Part shown: positions 3 through 31,571 of the stretch, piece after piece
How the letters are laid out: each line of letters starts with the position of its first letter
Position numbering within the stretch: position 1 is the first letter of the stretch
Assembly (NCBI GenBank): GCA_012838515.1
Contig: DUPA01000264.1
Coordinates: forward strand, 1 to 35,725
Direction of reading: 5' to 3'
Length of the DNA stretch: 35,725 nucleotides
Source of the DNA: Natronincola sp.
GTDB lineage: Bacteria; Bacillota; Limnochordia; Darwinibacteriales; Darwinibacteriaceae
Program-made: the position numbers and the translations under genes
The notes under the pieces: model-generated
Database searches by the model: none
The model's input: only the letters and a program-made list of their open reading frames with translations
Told to the model about the DNA's origin: nothing

Positions 3-257
3 GGCGTAAACGAAATAGTTCTAGGAGATGGAACGGGCTCGATAGAATTTTTTGAGGAAATATCCAAAGAATTACCTCAACTCAAAGTAAATTTAGTTGA
101 TGAAAGCCACAGTACAGAAGAAGCTAGGCGACGGTATTGGATAGAAAATCCCCCTAAAGGATTGCGGAGATTTGCTCCAACGAGCATGCAGGTGCCACCG
201 GAGCCATATGATGAATATGTGGCCGTAATCTTAGCTGAAAGATATTTGCTAAAGTAA
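3..257 (+). CDS. YqgF/RuvX-like RNase H-fold protein, C-terminal part
   Basis: An open frame enters from the left edge and stops at TAA 255-257, giving 84 residues without a start. It contains a GDGTGS motif, a predicted strand ending VDESHST, then EARRRYW, a proline-rich PPKGLRRF segment, and ends DEYVAVILAERYLLK. This pattern resembles the C-terminal half of YqgF/RuvX-like (Holliday-junction resolvase or pre-16S rRNA nuclease fold) proteins found as stand-alone genes in Firmicutes and cyanobacteria. The N-terminal catalytic half lies outside the window, so activity cannot be judged. About 100 bases separate it from the next gene and no clear terminator lies between them. The family call is from memory of the motif pattern and is moderate. 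Confidence 0.5.
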   Translation, partial: GVNEIVLGDGTGSIEFFEEISKELPQLKVNLVDESHSTEEARRRYWIENPPKGLRRFAPTSMQVPPEPYDEYVAVILAERYLLK

Positions 258-355: not shown

Positions 356-1672
356 GTGCAGAAGCGATTTATTCTTTTTGTTTTCATTTTATTGTTTTGT
401 GTTTATTCAGGTTTTGCACCGACAGCATCTGCTAGTTCTTCCGCTTCAAATGTAGTTGTCTCCAGCGAAGATTGGACAATTACAGCAATTGAAAACCTTT
501 CTTCTACCCGGCAGATTCCCGGATTTGACATACCGAATAAAATCAATCGTACACAGGGTGCACTTTTAGTTTCCCGCCTTCTGCAGCATTTAACTGGTGA
601 GGACGAAGGCGATTCTCGCCGTTTTGGCGTGAGCAAAAATGTCTATTTGGATAATATGATTTTCACCTATAATCAGAGGGTTACTCCTGAAGAGGCATTA
701 ACAACAAATCAAGTTGAGGCATTATATTTGCTTGTTTTAGAATTCCGTGACGAATTGGAGATCTTGGGCTATTCTATTCAAGATTTTAATATGCTCGCCG
801 AAATGAGTCCAAGAAGAGGTCAACAAGGTCTGTTTTCTCAACGTCCACTTTTATATTCAGAACAGGCTTTATCTGCCGCTCGTAAACTTGATGACGAAAG
901 CAAGCTCAATGATTTTATCTTGCAGACTAAACAGAATAATCCGCAACAATTGGAGCAAAGTGTGGTTGAGATTATGCAACCTCCAATTGAACCTAAAAAC
1001 CTATGGACCGGACATTTTACATCAGAAGGCCGGTATTTGCCTCCTAGTAATCGTTTGATTGCACAAGAACCTACACCTGACTCACCACTAAATCCTATCC
1101 AATTAGGGGCTATAGAGGTAAGCGGAGCGTTGAGGGCTTTGGCCACGGATAATGAACCCCGTGATAAACAAGATGATTCTCAGAGCGGAGCGGGATATGG
1201 GATTCTTGTAAAGATGGGCGATCTCGCTCTGAATACAGCCTTAGATGTGGCGGTTGATCCTACTTTAGAACCGAAGATCGCTAGCACATCCGTTGGTTTG
1301 AGTTTGGATTGGGCTGACTTGTTTACCCTTAGTGCCGGAATCAAACAACAAGATTTGTTAAAGGCAGCTGCAGATGCAGAACCCGTCCTACCCTTGGTAA
1401 CTTCATTAGGTGTTGTCGTCCCCATAACTCGGGGAAGGGTACATTTGGGAATGAGTCAAGAGTGGCCAAAATCAAGTGGCGAAGAAGGAGAAAAGCCCCC
1501 TGACGATGAATCGAATCAAAGTGTGTTTTTGCCGAAGAATACTGCGGAAGTTGGTTTGAGATATGATTTTAAAAATGATAGTTCTCTGCGTTTAAATTAT
1601 ATGTTAATTGACTTTAGTGACGTTGAACAAGATCATTACAAGGCAAAAGCGGAATTTTCTATTAAATTTTAG
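356..1672 (+). CDS. Secreted SLH-like plus beta-barrel-like protein (OmpM-like candidate)
   Basis: 438 residues from a GTG start with a strong ribosome site (AAGGAGGGGG, 341-350). Residues 1-27 form a signal peptide ending near ASA. Residues about 40-80 (W40, IENL, INRTQGALLVSRLL) resemble one S-layer homology repeat, and a second helical stretch follows at 112-137. Residues about 170-205 are helical. From about 248 to the end the chain alternates polar and hydrophobic residues in short strands separated by acidic loops, and it ends EFSIKF with a terminal Phe, as many outer-membrane beta-barrels do. An SLH domain followed by a barrel is the layout of OmpM in diderm Firmicutes. I infer a cell-surface or outer-membrane protein; no sequence family was recognised with certainty. 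It sits directly upstream of another secreted protein and the polysaccharide exporter. Confidence 0.6.
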   Translation: MQKRFILFVFILLFCVYSGFAPTASASSSASNVVVSSEDWTITAIENLSSTRQIPGFDIPNKINRTQGALLVSRLLQHLTGEDEGDSRRFGVSKNVYLDNMIFTYNQRVTPEEALTTNQVEALYLLVLEFRDELEILGYSIQDFNMLAEMSPRRGQQGLFSQRPLLYSEQALSAARKLDDESKLNDFILQTKQNNPQQLEQSVVEIMQPPIEPKNLWTGHFTSEGRYLPPSNRLIAQEPTPDSPLNPIQLGAIEVSGALRALATDNEPRDKQDDSQSGAGYGILVKMGDLALNTALDVAVDPTLEPKIASTSVGLSLDWADLFTLSAGIKQQDLLKAAADAEPVLPLVTSLGVVVPITRGRVHLGMSQEWPKSSGEEGEKPPDDESNQSVFLPKNTAEVGLRYDFKNDSSLRLNYMLIDFSDVEQDHYKAKAEFSIKF

Positions 1673-2702: not shown

Positions 2703-4901
2703 ATGAGGTGTAGGGGCAATATGAGGAAATCGCGAACAAAAGTAACAATATGTATGTTTTTACTAGTAATATTGATTTATGGCCTGCCCGCTACGGCTAA
2801 CGAGTACTTACTTGGGGTAGGCGATGTATTAGCAATTTCGGTATGGGGTCATAATGAACTTACAACTGAAGTTGCCGTAAGACCGGATGGTTACCTCACT
2901 TTCCCCCTTGTCGGCGATATATGGGCTGTGGATAAAACCGCTAGAGCCCTGTCTAAAGAGATTCAAAGCCAGTTAGCCGAGTACATTGTCAATCCGCAAG
3001 TAACAGTGATTATTAGCCACTTTCGTACGCTTCAGGTACAAGTCTTAGGTGAAGTAAGATCCACAGGTTATTACAATTTAAAGTCAGGTTCAAGACTGAT
3101 GGATGTATTGGCTTTAGCGGGTGGACCCACTAAAAGCGCGGATCTTGATAAGGTTAGTATTACCCGTTACAATATGAATTCTCAGGGCATTGAGTTGACC
3201 AGTGTTTTGCACATAGACGTTAATCAGTTTATTCAAGGTGGAGACCTGAAATCAAATCCCATTATTCAAAGCGGTGATATGATTTTCATTCCCACCACAG
3301 GAAGGGCCACAATTTTTGGCGAAGTTCGTCAACCGACCAGTTACGATTTGGGTAGTGGGCTAGGTATTCTTGATCTTTTAGCTTTAGCCGGTGGCGCACT
3401 GGATTCGGCTGATTTGGCGAGGGTGGTTGTGACAAGTCAAGGCGAAGATAAACCAAATGAACGAATAGTTAATGTACAAAGCATAATGTCCGGTGGTAGT
3501 AAAGATGTGCGCATAGATCCAAATGATGTTGTCTTTGTTCCGAAGAAACAGCAAGTCATGTTATTTGGTGCAGTTAAATCGCCCGGTATTTATGTTCTGG
3601 ATAAAGAAACCTCTTTGATAGATTTGTTGGCGAGGTCCGGGGGTTTGTTACCTTCCGGCAATAGCTCTTCAATATCAATTACCCGAAACGTCGATGGCGA
3701 ACAGGATATTTCCATTGTAAACGCATCGCCGGGTCTTAGCGGACAAAAAGGTGGGGACAACCCGCTTCTAGTTGCCGATGATTTAATCTTCGTGCCTGAA
3801 GGAGAACAAAACGCATTGGTCTTAGGTGAAGTTCGTTCCCCGGGTGCATATGCGGTTAAGGAACATACTACAGTTTTAGATCTTTTGGCACAAGCCGGGG
3901 GCACCCATGAAAGGGCCGGAGAAAATATAACTTTAACAAGAAACGGTGAAAGTAAGGAAATTAATTTATATACCTTGGAACGCCAAGGGTTAAATAATGA
4001 AAAAGTAATGCCCGGTGATGTTATTTATGTAGCAGAGGTCAGACGGCAAGTCTTAGTATTGGGCGAAGTGCGCAATCCCGGTTACTTTCAATTTAGAGTA
4101 GGTGATCGGATATTGGACGCCATTGCTTCGGCCGGCGGGCTAACAAGCGATGCCCAAGAAGATCAAGTGTCTTTAACTCGACATACTCAAGAAAAAGTAA
4201 ATATCTCCATACACGACTTTGGAAGACTTATGACAGAACGCTCTTTGCCTGACAATGTTCTTCTGCATCCACAAGATGTGATTATAGTTCCGAAGGCCAA
4301 TCGCAATGTATTGGTTTTCGGGGAAGTGGCCAGATCCGGTGTTTATACATTACCGCCTGATGGACGTATTTTAGACATTCTGGCCCTAGCGGGTGGAGTG
4401 CAACAAACATCGGGTATTCAGACAATTGTCTTAACCAGACAGGATGGGGAAGACGAGAGGGTATGGCATGTTGATTATCAGGATCTTATGGACAACCAGA
4501 ATGAGCACAATTTAGCTGTTGATGGTGGAGACGTTATTTATGTTCCCGCATCTAAGAAGCAGATCTTAGTTTTGGGACAAGTTAAGAACCCCGGGGCCTA
4601 TAATTTACCCCCGGGAGGGCGCGTCATGGATGCTTTGGCACTCGCAGGGGGCCCATTAGAAAGGGCTGCTTTGGAAAACGTGGGAATTTATCGAGATGGA
4701 TCAGTTGAAGACTCTGAATCAGTAATTATGGGTAAAGATAAGGTCTTGTTTACAGGTGATGTGAAGGAAAATCCCCAACTAGAAGGTGGAGACATAATTT
4801 ATATACCGGAAACCAAAAAGCCGGATTGGCTCAAGATATTTAGTTTTGTTGGAGCAATTAAATCATTTAAAGATGCCGTGAAAAGCATACTTACTTTCTA
4901 G
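2703..4901 (+). CDS. Wza-like polysaccharide export protein with seven SLBB repeats
   Basis: 732 residues from ATG 2703. The in-frame ATG at 2721 (preceded by GAGGTG, 2705-2710) is the likelier start and leads straight into a signal peptide ending ATA-NE. Residues 35-106 match the Poly_export domain (YLLGVGDVL, VRPDGYLTFPLVG, NPQVTV). Seven SLBB-type repeats follow, starting near 110, 201, 284, 370, 449, 535 and 619; each carries a G-EV/AV-P-G-Y motif, then LD-LALAGG. The usual Wza has two SLBB domains, so this is strongly expanded. The last 25 residues (from W709) look like an amphipathic helix, comparable to the helix with which Wza crosses the outer membrane. There is no lipobox Cys. It heads a cluster with the chain-length protein, kinase and phosphatase, and probably forms the export conduit for a surface polysaccharide. 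Confidence 0.88.
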   Translation: MRCRGNMRKSRTKVTICMFLLVILIYGLPATANEYLLGVGDVLAISVWGHNELTTEVAVRPDGYLTFPLVGDIWAVDKTARALSKEIQSQLAEYIVNPQVTVIISHFRTLQVQVLGEVRSTGYYNLKSGSRLMDVLALAGGPTKSADLDKVSITRYNMNSQGIELTSVLHIDVNQFIQGGDLKSNPIIQSGDMIFIPTTGRATIFGEVRQPTSYDLGSGLGILDLLALAGGALDSADLARVVVTSQGEDKPNERIVNVQSIMSGGSKDVRIDPNDVVFVPKKQQVMLFGAVKSPGIYVLDKETSLIDLLARSGGLLPSGNSSSISITRNVDGEQDISIVNASPGLSGQKGGDNPLLVADDLIFVPEGEQNALVLGEVRSPGAYAVKEHTTVLDLLAQAGGTHERAGENITLTRNGESKEINLYTLERQGLNNEKVMPGDVIYVAEVRRQVLVLGEVRNPGYFQFRVGDRILDAIASAGGLTSDAQEDQVSLTRHTQEKVNISIHDFGRLMTERSLPDNVLLHPQDVIIVPKANRNVLVFGEVARSGVYTLPPDGRILDILALAGGVQQTSGIQTIVLTRQDGEDERVWHVDYQDLMDNQNEHNLAVDGGDVIYVPASKKQILVLGQVKNPGAYNLPPGGRVMDALALAGGPLERAALENVGIYRDGSVEDSESVIMGKDKVLFTGDVKENPQLEGGDIIYIPETKKPDWLKIFSFVGAIKSFKDAVKSILTF

Positions 4902-4913
4902 GGAGGTGATCTG

Positions 4914-6341
4914 ATGGATATGGAGGAAATGGATTTACGAGAATATTGGGAGATAATCATCAAAAAACGAGTGCTAATTTTAGTGGTTCTTTTTCTTGTG
5001 GTGTTAGCAGTAACAATATATAGTCTTGTTGCCACTCCAATATATGAGGCAACGACAACAGTCATTGTGCAGGAGCAAGGGGCAAGCCAAATGTTGTTTT
5101 TGGATGGTTTTTCGAATATGGGTAAAAATCAGGCCCAAAATTATATTCAGATTATGAAAAGCCGAAATATTTTGGAGCAAGTTCATGACAGGGCGGGGCT
5201 CTCCGAAGAGTATGATTTAATCAAGTTGGCTAAGAAGTTAAATATACAACCCGTTCAGGGCAGTGACTTACTGGCGATTAGCATACAATCCTCAGATCCC
5301 GAAGAAGCGCAATTAATAGTTAATTCATTGGCAGACGTTTTTATAAATTGGAATACTCTTTATAGGCAAGATGATGTACGTAGTGCAAGGGAGTTTATTC
5401 AAAGACAACTTATTACTGTTGAAGAGAATCTAAAGTTGGCCGAAGAAAATCTAAAGCAATTTAGGGAAGACGAAAAGCTTCTATCCCCAACGGAAGAAAC
5501 CATTGCAGGTATTGGGCAATTAGCAAACCTAGAAAAATTACAGGCTGAAGCGGATATTGCCATCAGAGAGACTCAAGAAAGAATTGAAAGGGTACATGCT
5601 AAATTATCAGCGGAAGAGGAAACATTTGTATCGAGCACGACAATTGGGGAAAACGCTTTCGTAACCCAATATAGGGCACGCTTGGCGGATCTGGAGATTT
5701 CGTTATCAGGCGCTAGAGAAAAATATACTGATTTACACCCTTCTGTACTGGCGATTCAGGCTGAGATAGAGGATATTAAAGAAAAACTGGCTGATCAAGT
5801 TGAACGAGTGATTGGAACTGAAACAAGAACCGTTAATCCAATACACCGCGAATTATATGGAAGTTTAATCGATCTTGAAGTGGGCTTGAATGCTTATCAC
5901 GCGCGTAAATTAGCTTTGCAAGAGATAATTGACTCTACAGAGGATAAACTTGGACTTTTACCCCAGAAGGAATTGCAATTAGTTCGCCTAATGAGGGATA
6001 GCAAAGTTCTAGAAGAACTCTATGTCATGCTACGTACTAAGGTTGAAGAAACTCGTATCACTGAAGCTATGCAAACTGCCGATGTACATGTTATAGATAC
6101 AGCTTTATTGCCGGAGCTTCCTGTTAAGCCAAGGGTTAAGTTAAATATAGCAATAAGTATCGTTCTTGGTGCTTTCTTAGGAGTTGGCTTGGCATTCTTA
6201 ATAGAGTTTATGGACAATACTGTGAAAACAAAGGAAGACGCCGAACGTCTCTTGGGAATTCCCGTTCTCGGTCAAATTCCCGATTTCGACTTTGGAAAAA
6301 GTATGGAAAAACGTAAAATCTTTACGAGAAAAAGGGTGTGA
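4914..6341 (+). CDS. Wzz/GNVR-type polysaccharide chain-length determinant and kinase activator
   Basis: 475 residues, ATG 4914 behind GGGAGGTGAT, 12 bases after the exporter gene. An N-terminal cytoplasmic stub (DLREYWEIIIKKR) leads into transmembrane segment one (about 18-42). A long extracytoplasmic coiled-coil region follows (about 150-375; many Leu, Glu and Lys), then the GNVR-like tail and a proline-containing ELPVKPR motif just before transmembrane segment two (about 405-428). The C-terminal cytoplasmic tail (DNTVKTKEDAERLLG, then PVLGQIP) is the part that in this family contacts the tyrosine kinase. Wzz-family proteins set polymer length and, in Firmicutes, activate the separate BY-kinase. 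Its stop overlaps the kinase GTG by four bases, implying translational coupling. Confidence 0.92.
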   Translation: MDMEEMDLREYWEIIIKKRVLILVVLFLVVLAVTIYSLVATPIYEATTTVIVQEQGASQMLFLDGFSNMGKNQAQNYIQIMKSRNILEQVHDRAGLSEEYDLIKLAKKLNIQPVQGSDLLAISIQSSDPEEAQLIVNSLADVFINWNTLYRQDDVRSAREFIQRQLITVEENLKLAEENLKQFREDEKLLSPTEETIAGIGQLANLEKLQAEADIAIRETQERIERVHAKLSAEEETFVSSTTIGENAFVTQYRARLADLEISLSGAREKYTDLHPSVLAIQAEIEDIKEKLADQVERVIGTETRTVNPIHRELYGSLIDLEVGLNAYHARKLALQEIIDSTEDKLGLLPQKELQLVRLMRDSKVLEELYVMLRTKVEETRITEAMQTADVHVIDTALLPELPVKPRVKLNIAISIVLGAFLGVGLAFLIEFMDNTVKTKEDAERLLGIPVLGQIPDFDFGKSMEKRKIFTRKRV

Positions 6342-7054
6342 GATTTGTGCGTAAAGGGCGTAAACAAGAAAATGGTAGGGCGCGCTTAATTGTGCATGAC
6401 GATCCTAAAGCGGTGGGAAGTGAAGCGTTTAGAACACTTAGGACTAATTTGCAATTCACTAGTCCCGATCAAGATTTAAAGTCAATTTTATTAACCAGTG
6501 CCGGACCGGGTGAAGGTAAATCTACAGTGTCAGCTAATTTGGCCGTTGCCTGGTCTCAATCGGGCGCAAAAGTTGTGCTAGTAGGTTGCGACCTTCGTAA
6601 ACCTGTTCTTCATGAAATGTTTTCCATTAGGAATGTTCCGGGTTTAAGTGCTGTGCTTTCCGGAGCCGCATCTTTAAAAGATGCTATCGTTTCCAGCAAT
6701 ATCCCCGGTTTAGATGTTATTCCCGCGGGTCCGCTTCCCCCAAACCCGGCTGAGCTTCTTCAATCTAAAGCAATGGTATCGGTTATTGAAGAACTGGAAA
6801 AAAGCTACGATATGGTTATCTTAGATGGTACTCCTGTGATTGCAGTTACAGATGCTGCTGTGATGGCAAATCAAGTAGATGGAATTGTGCTTGTTATAGG
6901 TTCTAATCAGGTGCCCAGGGAAATGGCTTTACAAGCTAAAAACTTGTTAGAGCAAGCGCAGGCCAAATTACTTGGGGTTATTATGAATAAGGTTAAATTC
7001 AAAGAATCAAATATGTATTACTATTATTATAATGAAGTGGATCAAGCGCAATGA
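6338..7054 (+). CDS. Bacterial tyrosine kinase (CpsD/CapB/PtkA family)
   Basis: 238 residues, GTG start overlapping the upstream stop (GTGA). Walker A is SAGPGEGKST (54-63), Walker A' is VVLVGCDLRKP (79-89; D85) and Walker B is VILDGTP (160-166; D163). The C-terminus carries five consecutive tyrosines (227-231), the autophosphorylated cluster of BY-kinases. The first Asp of the usual Walker A' pattern (hhhDxDxR) is replaced by Gly83, while the second is kept. In this family the kinase docks on the Wzz-like partner, and cycling of tyrosine phosphorylation controls polymer export. The gene sits between its presumed activator and its presumed phosphatase. Confidence 0.93.
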   Translation: MRFVRKGRKQENGRARLIVHDDPKAVGSEAFRTLRTNLQFTSPDQDLKSILLTSAGPGEGKSTVSANLAVAWSQSGAKVVLVGCDLRKPVLHEMFSIRNVPGLSAVLSGAASLKDAIVSSNIPGLDVIPAGPLPPNPAELLQSKAMVSVIEELEKSYDMVILDGTPVIAVTDAAVMANQVDGIVLVIGSNQVPREMALQAKNLLEQAQAKLLGVIMNKVKFKESNMYYYYYNEVDQAQ

Positions 7055-7809
7055 TAGATCTTCATACACACATTTTACCAACTGTAGATGATGGTGCTGC
7101 AGACTTGTCCATGTCCTTGGGCATGGGGAATTACGGGGTTGAGCATGGTGTAATCAAGGTGGCAGCCACCCCCCATTTCTATTCAATTCCGGATTGGTCA
7201 TTAATAAAAGAAAAAGTATCCCAATTACAGAGTGAATTCGATAATGCCGGGATCCCTATTGAGTTAGTCGCGGGAGCCGAGATTTTCGTAGATAATAGTA
7301 TTTTAGAATTGGATAAGGAAGATATCCCTACCTATGGCGATGGTGGTAAATATAGTCTCATTGAATTCCCGATGCAACAAGTGTCTTGGAATGCCGAACA
7401 AGTCATTTTTCATCTTCAGGTTAATGATATTACTCCGATTATTGCCCATCCTGAACGCTATAGGCAGGTGGTAGAGGATCCTGAAGTAGTCTTAAATTGG
7501 ATAAATTTAGGTTGCCTGATTCAAATGAATGCAGGTAGCATATTAGGTAGATTTGGCTCGAAGGTCAAGGAAACCTCTGAGATCATGCTCACCCATAACA
7601 TGGTACATTTGGTAGCAAGTGACGCCCACGGCTCAGAACGCCGTCGTCTCAATCTTCCGGAAGCTTACGAAGAATTAACCAAAGTAGTTGGAGAAGCTAA
7701 GGCTACTGATCTTGTACGTAATAATCCAAATTGTATATTAGAAGGGGATTTCCATCCCACTGAAGAACCGCTGAAATATAAGAAAAAGAAAAGATTCTTT
7801 TTCCTTTAA
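7051..7809 (+). CDS. PHP-family protein-tyrosine phosphatase (CpsB/CapC/YwqE)
   Basis: 252 residues, start overlapping the kinase stop (ATGA, 7051-7054). Metal-binding signatures of the PHP domain are visible: DLHTHILP near the N-terminus followed by DDG, then ATPHFY, IAHPERY, and ASDAHG near residue 192. These match the manganese-dependent tyrosine phosphatases CpsB (Streptococcus) and YwqE (Bacillus). It probably removes phosphate from the Tyr cluster of the neighbouring kinase. The C-terminus is a run of Lys and Phe. No glycosyltransferase, flippase or polymerase gene follows, so this is an export-and-regulation module without its biosynthesis genes in view. Confidence 0.93.
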   Translation: MIDLHTHILPTVDDGAADLSMSLGMGNYGVEHGVIKVAATPHFYSIPDWSLIKEKVSQLQSEFDNAGIPIELVAGAEIFVDNSILELDKEDIPTYGDGGKYSLIEFPMQQVSWNAEQVIFHLQVNDITPIIAHPERYRQVVEDPEVVLNWINLGCLIQMNAGSILGRFGSKVKETSEIMLTHNMVHLVASDAHGSERRRLNLPEAYEELTKVVGEAKATDLVRNNPNCILEGDFHPTEEPLKYKKKKRFFFL

Positions 7810-7857
7810 ATGAATACCATCTGCTGACTATCCGTATATTAAGGTCAGGAGGTGTTT

Positions 7858-7998
7858 GTGGTGGTATTTTGCCGTTTTACTTGCACTAAGAGAGATAAAT
7901 GCGATCAATTGGAGTTTTACTGTTCGCACTTTGAACGTCGCATGGAAATCGATTTGCTGGAAAAATGCCAACATTGTACAGAATACAAATCCATGTAA
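7858..7998 (+). CDS. Small cysteine-rich protein
   Basis: 46 codons from GTG 7858 (a second GTG follows at once), with an excellent ribosome site AGGAGGTG (7847-7854). The product is rich in Cys: C5, C9, C15, C23, C39 and C42. The spacings CxxxC and CxxC, plus histidines, suggest a small zinc-binding or redox protein. No signal peptide or membrane segment is seen. It lies between the phosphatase and VanZ-like genes on the same strand, about 33 bases before the next start. I do not recognise a family; I call it on the ribosome site, uninterrupted frame and Cys pattern. Confidence 0.55.
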   Translation: MVVFCRFTCTKRDKCDQLEFYCSHFERRMEIDLLEKCQHCTEYKSM

Positions 7999-30455: not shown

Positions 30456-31571
30456 ATGAATAAACAAGTTAGTTTAGTAATCTTAGAAGGTGGCACTATT
30501 TGCGGTCATTTGGAAAAACAAATACAGATGGTGAGACAGGCATTGGTGTTTGATTTGATCGATAGGGCTCGGGAGGCGGGATATAATCATATTGTGGTTG
30601 GAACCTCGTACACTGAGTTAGCTGATGCTTTACAATTTAGTGAAGTGGACGTTTTCTTGGATCAATCAACGAATAAAGAACCTTTTCATTTTGGCCAACG
30701 GCTACAGGGGATAGTTAATAAGTATGATTTGAAAAAGGTTTTATATATGGGGGGAGCATCTGCTCCCCTAATTTCTTCTTCCGAATTAAAGTACATCAAG
30801 GAAGTCTTAGAACAGAATGAGGATGTCTTCATGGCCAACAACTATTATTCCGCCGATATAGTTGGCTTTACCCCGGGTAAAATACTTAATAGAGTTAGCT
30901 TGCCGATGATTGATAATAGTTTACCACTAAGCCTGGGTAATGATGGTGGCTTACGTTTTCTACCAATGCAGCGAACTTTGGGTTTAAATTTTGATGTGGA
31001 CACACCCACAGATATACTGATCATGTCGGTGCATCCCAATTTAGGATCACACAGCAAGAAGGTGGTGGAAACCCTTTCTTGGGATCTGGAACGGTATAAA
31101 GTTCTAAAAAATTTATTGAATGATCCCCGGAGTGAACTTGTTATTTATGGAAGGGTTGGTTCCAATCTATTTCAATATCTTGACCAAAATACCCGTTGTC
31201 GTATTAGACTTTATTCAGAGGAACGGGGAATGAAAGCCTTAGGACGCGATCTGCGAGGTGAGGTAAAAACCCTTATGGGTGAGTTAGCCCGGACTCTCGG
31301 TTTCAAAAATTTTTTTGAATTTTTATCTCAAATTGCTAACGGGGCGGTCCTAGACACAAGGGTATTGTTCGAACACTTTCAATGGAAACTAAGTCAAGCG
31401 GATCGCTTCGCATCAGATCTGGGCGAAGTAGACCTGATTGAACATGCAGGTTTGCGGGAGTTTACGTTAGCGGCCATAAATGCACCCATACCAATTCTTT
31501 TGGGCGGTCATTCTTTAGTAACGGGAGGGCTTTGGGCGTTAATTGATGCTAAAGAAAAAGGGACCGGATAG
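30456..31571 (+). CDS. Unrecognised protein, possible MobA/CofC-like nucleotidyltransferase fold
   Basis: 371 residues, starting two bases after the hpf stop. The first 200 residues read like a Rossmann-type transferase: VSLVILEGGTICG, HIVVGTSYTELADAL, VLYMGGASAPLISSSEL, then FMANNYYSADIVGF and FDVDTPTDILIM; this order of a substrate pocket, a late acidic pair and a DVDTPTD motif recalls the guanylyl/cytidylyltransferase fold of MobA and CofC. The N-terminal Gly-rich nucleotide loop is not canonical. The remaining 170 residues are helical (ERYKVLKNLLNDPRSELVIYG and so on) and unrecognised. The gene lies between hpf and secA, where B. subtilis has none. Confidence 0.5.
   Translation: MNKQVSLVILEGGTICGHLEKQIQMVRQALVFDLIDRAREAGYNHIVVGTSYTELADALQFSEVDVFLDQSTNKEPFHFGQRLQGIVNKYDLKKVLYMGGASAPLISSSELKYIKEVLEQNEDVFMANNYYSADIVGFTPGKILNRVSLPMIDNSLPLSLGNDGGLRFLPMQRTLGLNFDVDTPTDILIMSVHPNLGSHSKKVVETLSWDLERYKVLKNLLNDPRSELVIYGRVGSNLFQYLDQNTRCRIRLYSEERGMKALGRDLRGEVKTLMGELARTLGFKNFFEFLSQIANGAVLDTRVLFEHFQWKLSQADRFASDLGEVDLIEHAGLREFTLAAINAPIPILLGGHSLVTGGLWALIDAKEKGTG

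Follow-up and report, generated by a model that had tools for sequence, protein, structure and literature searches.

Here, we describe a gene at positions 356–1672 (+ strand) of the window, i.e., the whole 35,725-nucleotide stretch of DNA that was analysed, which is one whole contig of a Natronincola sp. assembly. The encoded 438-aa protein combines an SLH-derived N-terminus with a small outer-membrane beta barrel, and family-level comparisons indicate that it belongs to a second, separate orthologous SLH-barrel family and is not the organism's OmpM. Our search of the open-access literature turned up no description of the family; Taib 2020 and Witwinowski 2022 may have placed it among OmpM paralogues.

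Layout of the SLH-barrel gene and its product

The reading frame is uninterrupted and begins with GTG, 5 nt past a strong Shine-Dalgarno sequence (aaggaggggg, 341–350), and homologues without internal stops occur in 34 of the 37 genomes of the order. The signal peptide that a sequence-only reading of this DNA had proposed is borne out by its composition (KR followed by a hydrophobic stretch and ASA); it covers residues 1 to ~26 (356–433, + strand), with predicted cleavage after ASA, and is modelled as a helix at residues 2–18 and with low confidence thereafter. The remainder comprises a derived SLH domain (residues 35–78; 458–589, + strand) that keeps W40 and R65 and lacks the five-residue glycine loop, a helical region (residues 90–142; 623–781, + strand) with an invariant EL..LG motif that is also present in V. 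parvula OmpM, a linker (residues 143–240; 782–1075, + strand), and a C-terminal beta barrel (1076–1669, + strand) with a terminal Phe. Helices are modelled at residues 98–150 and 169–192, and apart from the second of these the linker is of low confidence in the model. The protein has no NCBIfam name, and a Pfam DUF2982 match (E=0.056) was dismissed as chance.

A real but divergent SLH domain

Neither this protein nor any other protein of the 2.16-Mb, 93%-complete genome matched the Pfam SLH model (PF00395), and phmmer with the single protein found no match in the PDB, OmpM being reached by profiles alone. With a profile of 28 orthologues, the E values were 4e-8 for V. parvula OmpM chains and 6e-4 for Deinococcus SlpA; with one of 45 sequences, they fell to 7e-17 for OmpM (8bys) and 6e-13 for SlpA, and the S-layer protein Sap was recovered at 0.005. 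Further, hhalign matched the N-terminal alignment to the neighbouring canonical OmpM of relatives with 97% probability (E=5e-11), and the reversed and column-shuffled controls all remained <1%. Members from other orders of the class retain full SLH motifs including TRYE (e.g., L099: GHWAYGALEQL...GYSSGFF...RRLTRYE) and PF00395 matches 3 of the 45 family members (E<=0.01), which together argue for a derived SLH domain and not a chance look-alike. Thus, the SLH-like segment that had been picked out by eye is, on these alignments, homologous to that of OmpM and real but divergent, although the PF00395 search proposed for confirming it finds nothing in this protein; a Pfam SLH search by itself overlooks such SLH-barrel proteins.

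In the alignment, the five-residue glycine loop is deleted throughout the window protein's order, and NRxQ or NRxE takes the place of TRYE in this protein and in most members of the order, so that the intact set of ligand motifs (Trp, glycine loop, TRxE) is not found here. Trp40 is conserved throughout, as is Arg65 apart from one Ser, and in SLH-SCWP structures (PMC10628300) the positions of these two residues make contact with the sugar and with the pyruvate ketal. The degenerate SLH in this order may have stopped binding wall polymer. If binding persists, the ligand is likely to be a pyruvylated wall polymer, given that the genome encodes CsaB (TIGR03609, above cut-off), the enzyme that pyruvylates SLH-ligand wall polymers.

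A small predicted outer-membrane barrel

The full-length AlphaFold model reached a pLDDT of 68 and a pTM of 0.42, and the barrel-only model a pLDDT of 80 and a pTM of 0.70, with ten long strands. Among the Foldseek matches listed, almost all were outer-membrane barrels or barrel-containing complexes, with modest scores (E 1e-3 to 1e-2, the barrel alone doing no better than ~6e-3; TM at most 0.58). The hydropathy alternation of the strands was 3.20, versus 1.55 in shuffled strands, and 0 of 5000 shuffles reached 3.20; the terminal Phe occurs in all aligned family sequences that extend to the end. The structure model thereby agrees with the barrel suspected from the letters, and the alternating strands leading to a terminal Phe were recovered as about ten amphipathic C-terminal strands. 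Weak similarity to Porin_4 was seen in 22 of 45 family members and to OMP_b-brl in 12 of 45. The count of ~10 strands comes from the model of the window protein only, and, as counted by eye in the alignment, additional hairpins bring the total to roughly 14 and 16 strands in families elsewhere in the order and class.

With V. parvula OmpM1 (PDB 8bys/8bym/8bz2), the protein shares the signal peptide, one SLH per chain, the EF..EL..LG start of the helix, a C-terminal outer-membrane barrel with a terminal Phe, and a gene position in an outer-membrane cluster. It differs in its divergent SLH, which lacks the glycine loop in this order, in its ~10 predicted strands versus 16 in OmpM1 and 16–30 among OmpM-like proteins generally, and in co-existing with a canonical OmpM in relatives. 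No long coiled-coil stalk appears in the full-length model (itself weak): the longest modelled helix after the signal peptide has 24 residues (169–192) and lies in an otherwise low-confidence linker, and the protein may form a short trimeric coiled coil. SlpA of Deinococcus (PDB 7zgx) likewise has SLH, helices, and barrel, and its profile match extends over the SLH, but it carries a 28–30-stranded barrel and a long coiled coil (PMC9388160).

Gene order and a separate canonical OmpM

The contig begins within a yqgF-like gene, the 3' part of which lies at 3–257 (+ strand), so the upstream canonical ompM would fall beyond the contig end. Sister genomes show the gene order fabZ - lpxB - lptB - coiled-coil protein - canonical ompM - yqgF - SLH-barrel gene - gene307 - OPX - Wzz - kinase - CpsB, with ompM two genes upstream of the SLH-barrel gene in 23 of 23 sister loci whose contigs reach that far. 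The canonical OmpM of these relatives has 733–885 aa and an intact SLH with GYPDG and TRYE, and hhalign detected no homology between its barrel and that of the SLH-barrel protein. Hence, the description "OmpM-like" survives for the SLH homology and the barrel but not as an assignment to OmpM itself, which is a separate gene.

A search of the organism's own genome for a canonical OmpM found only an SLH plus coiled-coil protein, on contig C111. An assembly gap is the most likely reason for the missing OmpM: the window opens partway through yqgF, and 9 of 29 sister contigs likewise stop within ompM or immediately ahead of it. Assemblies were seen to break repeatedly in or beside this gene (position 1 of the window; L034, L037, L038, L042, L044, L045, L047, L053, and L054), which would hide canonical OmpM from genome scans. 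The C111 protein (L097:1492-2562, G000:C111; 356 aa) has a signal peptide, an SLH-like segment, a long coiled coil, and a C-terminal hydrophobic helix, which is the layout of Thermotoga Omp-alpha; the latter is an SLH-based envelope spacer, as the SLH-barrel protein would be, but has no barrel.

Beyond the order, the family extends across the Limnochordia-like class and into other classes of the phylum. Other orders of the class keep lptB - coiled-coil - ompM - yqgF - SLH-barrel gene - gene307 (with two extra genes in L118), and the OPX module is often non-adjacent there. In a wider survey of a 399-genome sample of the phylum, ten further loci were inspected (nine outside the class), and all ten held a family member with gene307 immediately downstream, with a yqgF-like gene directly upstream in most and several kilobases off in three (L136, L137, and L139). 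Genomes with SLH-only matches (e.g., family f44) appear to lack the SLH-barrel family and, as a guess, may be Negativicutes.

The constant downstream partner, gene307 (1691–2614, + strand), encodes a secreted protein that carries YG..G....R repeats together with a glycine-rich hydrophobic segment; it follows the SLH-barrel gene in every locus that is long enough, and has neither an NCBIfam name nor a match in Pfam, NCBIfam, or the PDB. Within the order, its homologues are 43–65% identical to the window copy and better conserved than the accompanying barrel protein. Next lies an OPX (Wza/EpsE-like) polysaccharide export protein with repeated SLBB domains (2703–4901, + strand), a neighbour in some lineages only, and then a capsule or exopolysaccharide module of Wzz-type co-polymerase, tyrosine-kinase-like ATPase, and CpsB/CapC phosphatase (4914–7809, + strand). 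Separately, a 371-aa reading frame without a Pfam match lies at 30456–31571 of the window, between a ribosome hibernation factor-like gene and secA.

Outer-membrane machinery of the genome

The outer membrane that the sequence-only reading had deduced is well supported by the bamA gene on contig C46 (Omp85 E=7e-59; NCBIfam BamA just under cut-off) and by OmpH-like, LptF, LptC, and LptA-like genes on the same contig. The organism very probably has an outer membrane, and cultivated Limnochordia are visibly diderm (PMC11456536). The lipid A genes that had also been proposed as a check gave a different outcome: none of the 37 genomes of the order has LpxC, whereas 31 of the class's 36 other genomes do. 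In the order (L032:1272-3579), fabZ, an LpxB homologue (Pfam 184 bits), and Lpt genes are retained, where a class relative has lpxC - NTP transferase - fabZ - lpxA - PEMT - lpxI - lpxB at the matching place; the outer membrane of the order would have Lpt and LpxB yet lack the committed lipid A step.

No Pal/OmpA tether was seen in the genome, as its sole OmpA-domain match (PF00691) is MotB-like and sits beside a MotA-like gene, and was therefore rejected as Pal. Near bamA, the lptA/lptC/lptF-like genes are flanked by two proteins (707 and 727 aa; G000:C46; L061:2277-4400 and 5691-7874, - strand) that have no Pfam match and are candidates for LptD- or TamB-like components. The immediate neighbour of bamA encodes a protein of 580 aa that contains a SpoIVB-type S55 peptidase domain (L061:12809-14551, - strand).

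Proposed role and alternatives

We lean, with modest confidence, towards the SLH-barrel protein being a small non-porin connector between outer membrane and cell wall, with gene307 as its periplasmic partner. The protein would be exported by Sec and its barrel presumably inserted by BamA; anchored there, it would extend a short helical stalk, ending in the periplasmic SLH-derived domain, to the cell wall or a wall-linked polymer, where the gene307 product would join it in the periplasm. The tie between outer membrane and wall proposed earlier is, judged from sequence, plausible; wall binding, the non-porin nature, and the partnership with gene307 are all things we infer. Counting against a connector are the degenerate SLH of the order, the weak full-length model, the modest Foldseek E values, the lack of a long modelled coiled-coil stalk, and the canonical OmpM that already provides a tether in relatives.

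The protein might instead have no wall binding left and serve with gene307 as a biogenesis or lipid-transport accessory, the SLH remnant acting as a protein-protein docking domain. Its constant place in the outer-membrane cluster, after lptB and ompM and beside gene307, and the loss of the SLH loop in this order are consistent with such a role, and Antunes et al. (PMC5007114) found no LptD/E in diderm Firmicutes, which makes unassigned barrels there candidates for unfilled roles. However, W40 and R65 remain conserved, the SLH is near-canonical outside the order, and a direct link to lipid transport is lacking, and we regard this alternative as unlikely.

A small porin or specific channel that the SLH merely orients would accord with the weak Porin_4 and OMP_b-brl similarity in many members and with the higher strand numbers that more distant relatives appear, by eye, to have. 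Barrels of 8–10 strands are normally too narrow as diffusion pores, though, and the window protein is modelled with ten, so that we hold a channel to be quite improbable.

The gene order in the window and most order-level loci (SLH-barrel gene - gene307 - OPX - Wzz - kinase) suggested that the protein might supply the beta barrel of a composite polysaccharide exporter together with the OPX protein encoded two genes downstream, as EpsX/WzpB, likewise an outer-membrane barrel encoded near an OPX gene, does with EpsY. This reading was downgraded after synteny comparison: in other families of the class and order, the SLH-barrel gene-gene307 pair occurs without adjacent OPX genes (L050, L060, L117-L119, L122-L124), so the coupling is broken in many lineages, whereas EpsX/WzpB is tightly coupled to short OPX genes. 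Moreover, known OPX partner barrels are 18-stranded and paired with short OPX proteins (PMC9601211), versus ~ten strands and a long OPX here, and no SLH is described in those systems; we now consider an exporter role very doubtful.

Finally, SLH domains are frequent in monoderm surface proteins, but an ordinary S-layer or secreted protein of a single-membrane bacterium, with strands that form no barrel, is scarcely credible given the BamA, OmpH-like, and Lpt genes of the same genome, the terminal Phe and strand amphipathy, and models and Foldseek matches that point to outer-membrane barrels.

Implications for diderm Bacillota

Diderm Bacillota hold a central place in the debate over the gain or loss of outer membranes by bacteria, and OmpM has been proposed as the ancestral tether that doubles as the general porin. 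A conserved second SLH-barrel protein near OmpM, together with a constant partner gene, adds a candidate component to the envelope of these bacteria and offers a natural test case for whether tethering and diffusion can be separated. We tentatively raise the possibility, itself rather doubtful, that this family and gene307 form an unrecognised, ancient outer-membrane-cluster module in several diderm Bacillota classes, and that in this order the barrel shrank to ~ten strands and the SLH glycine loop was lost, as was lpxC. If so, wall anchoring and nutrient diffusion, which OmpM combines, would be divided between two proteins.
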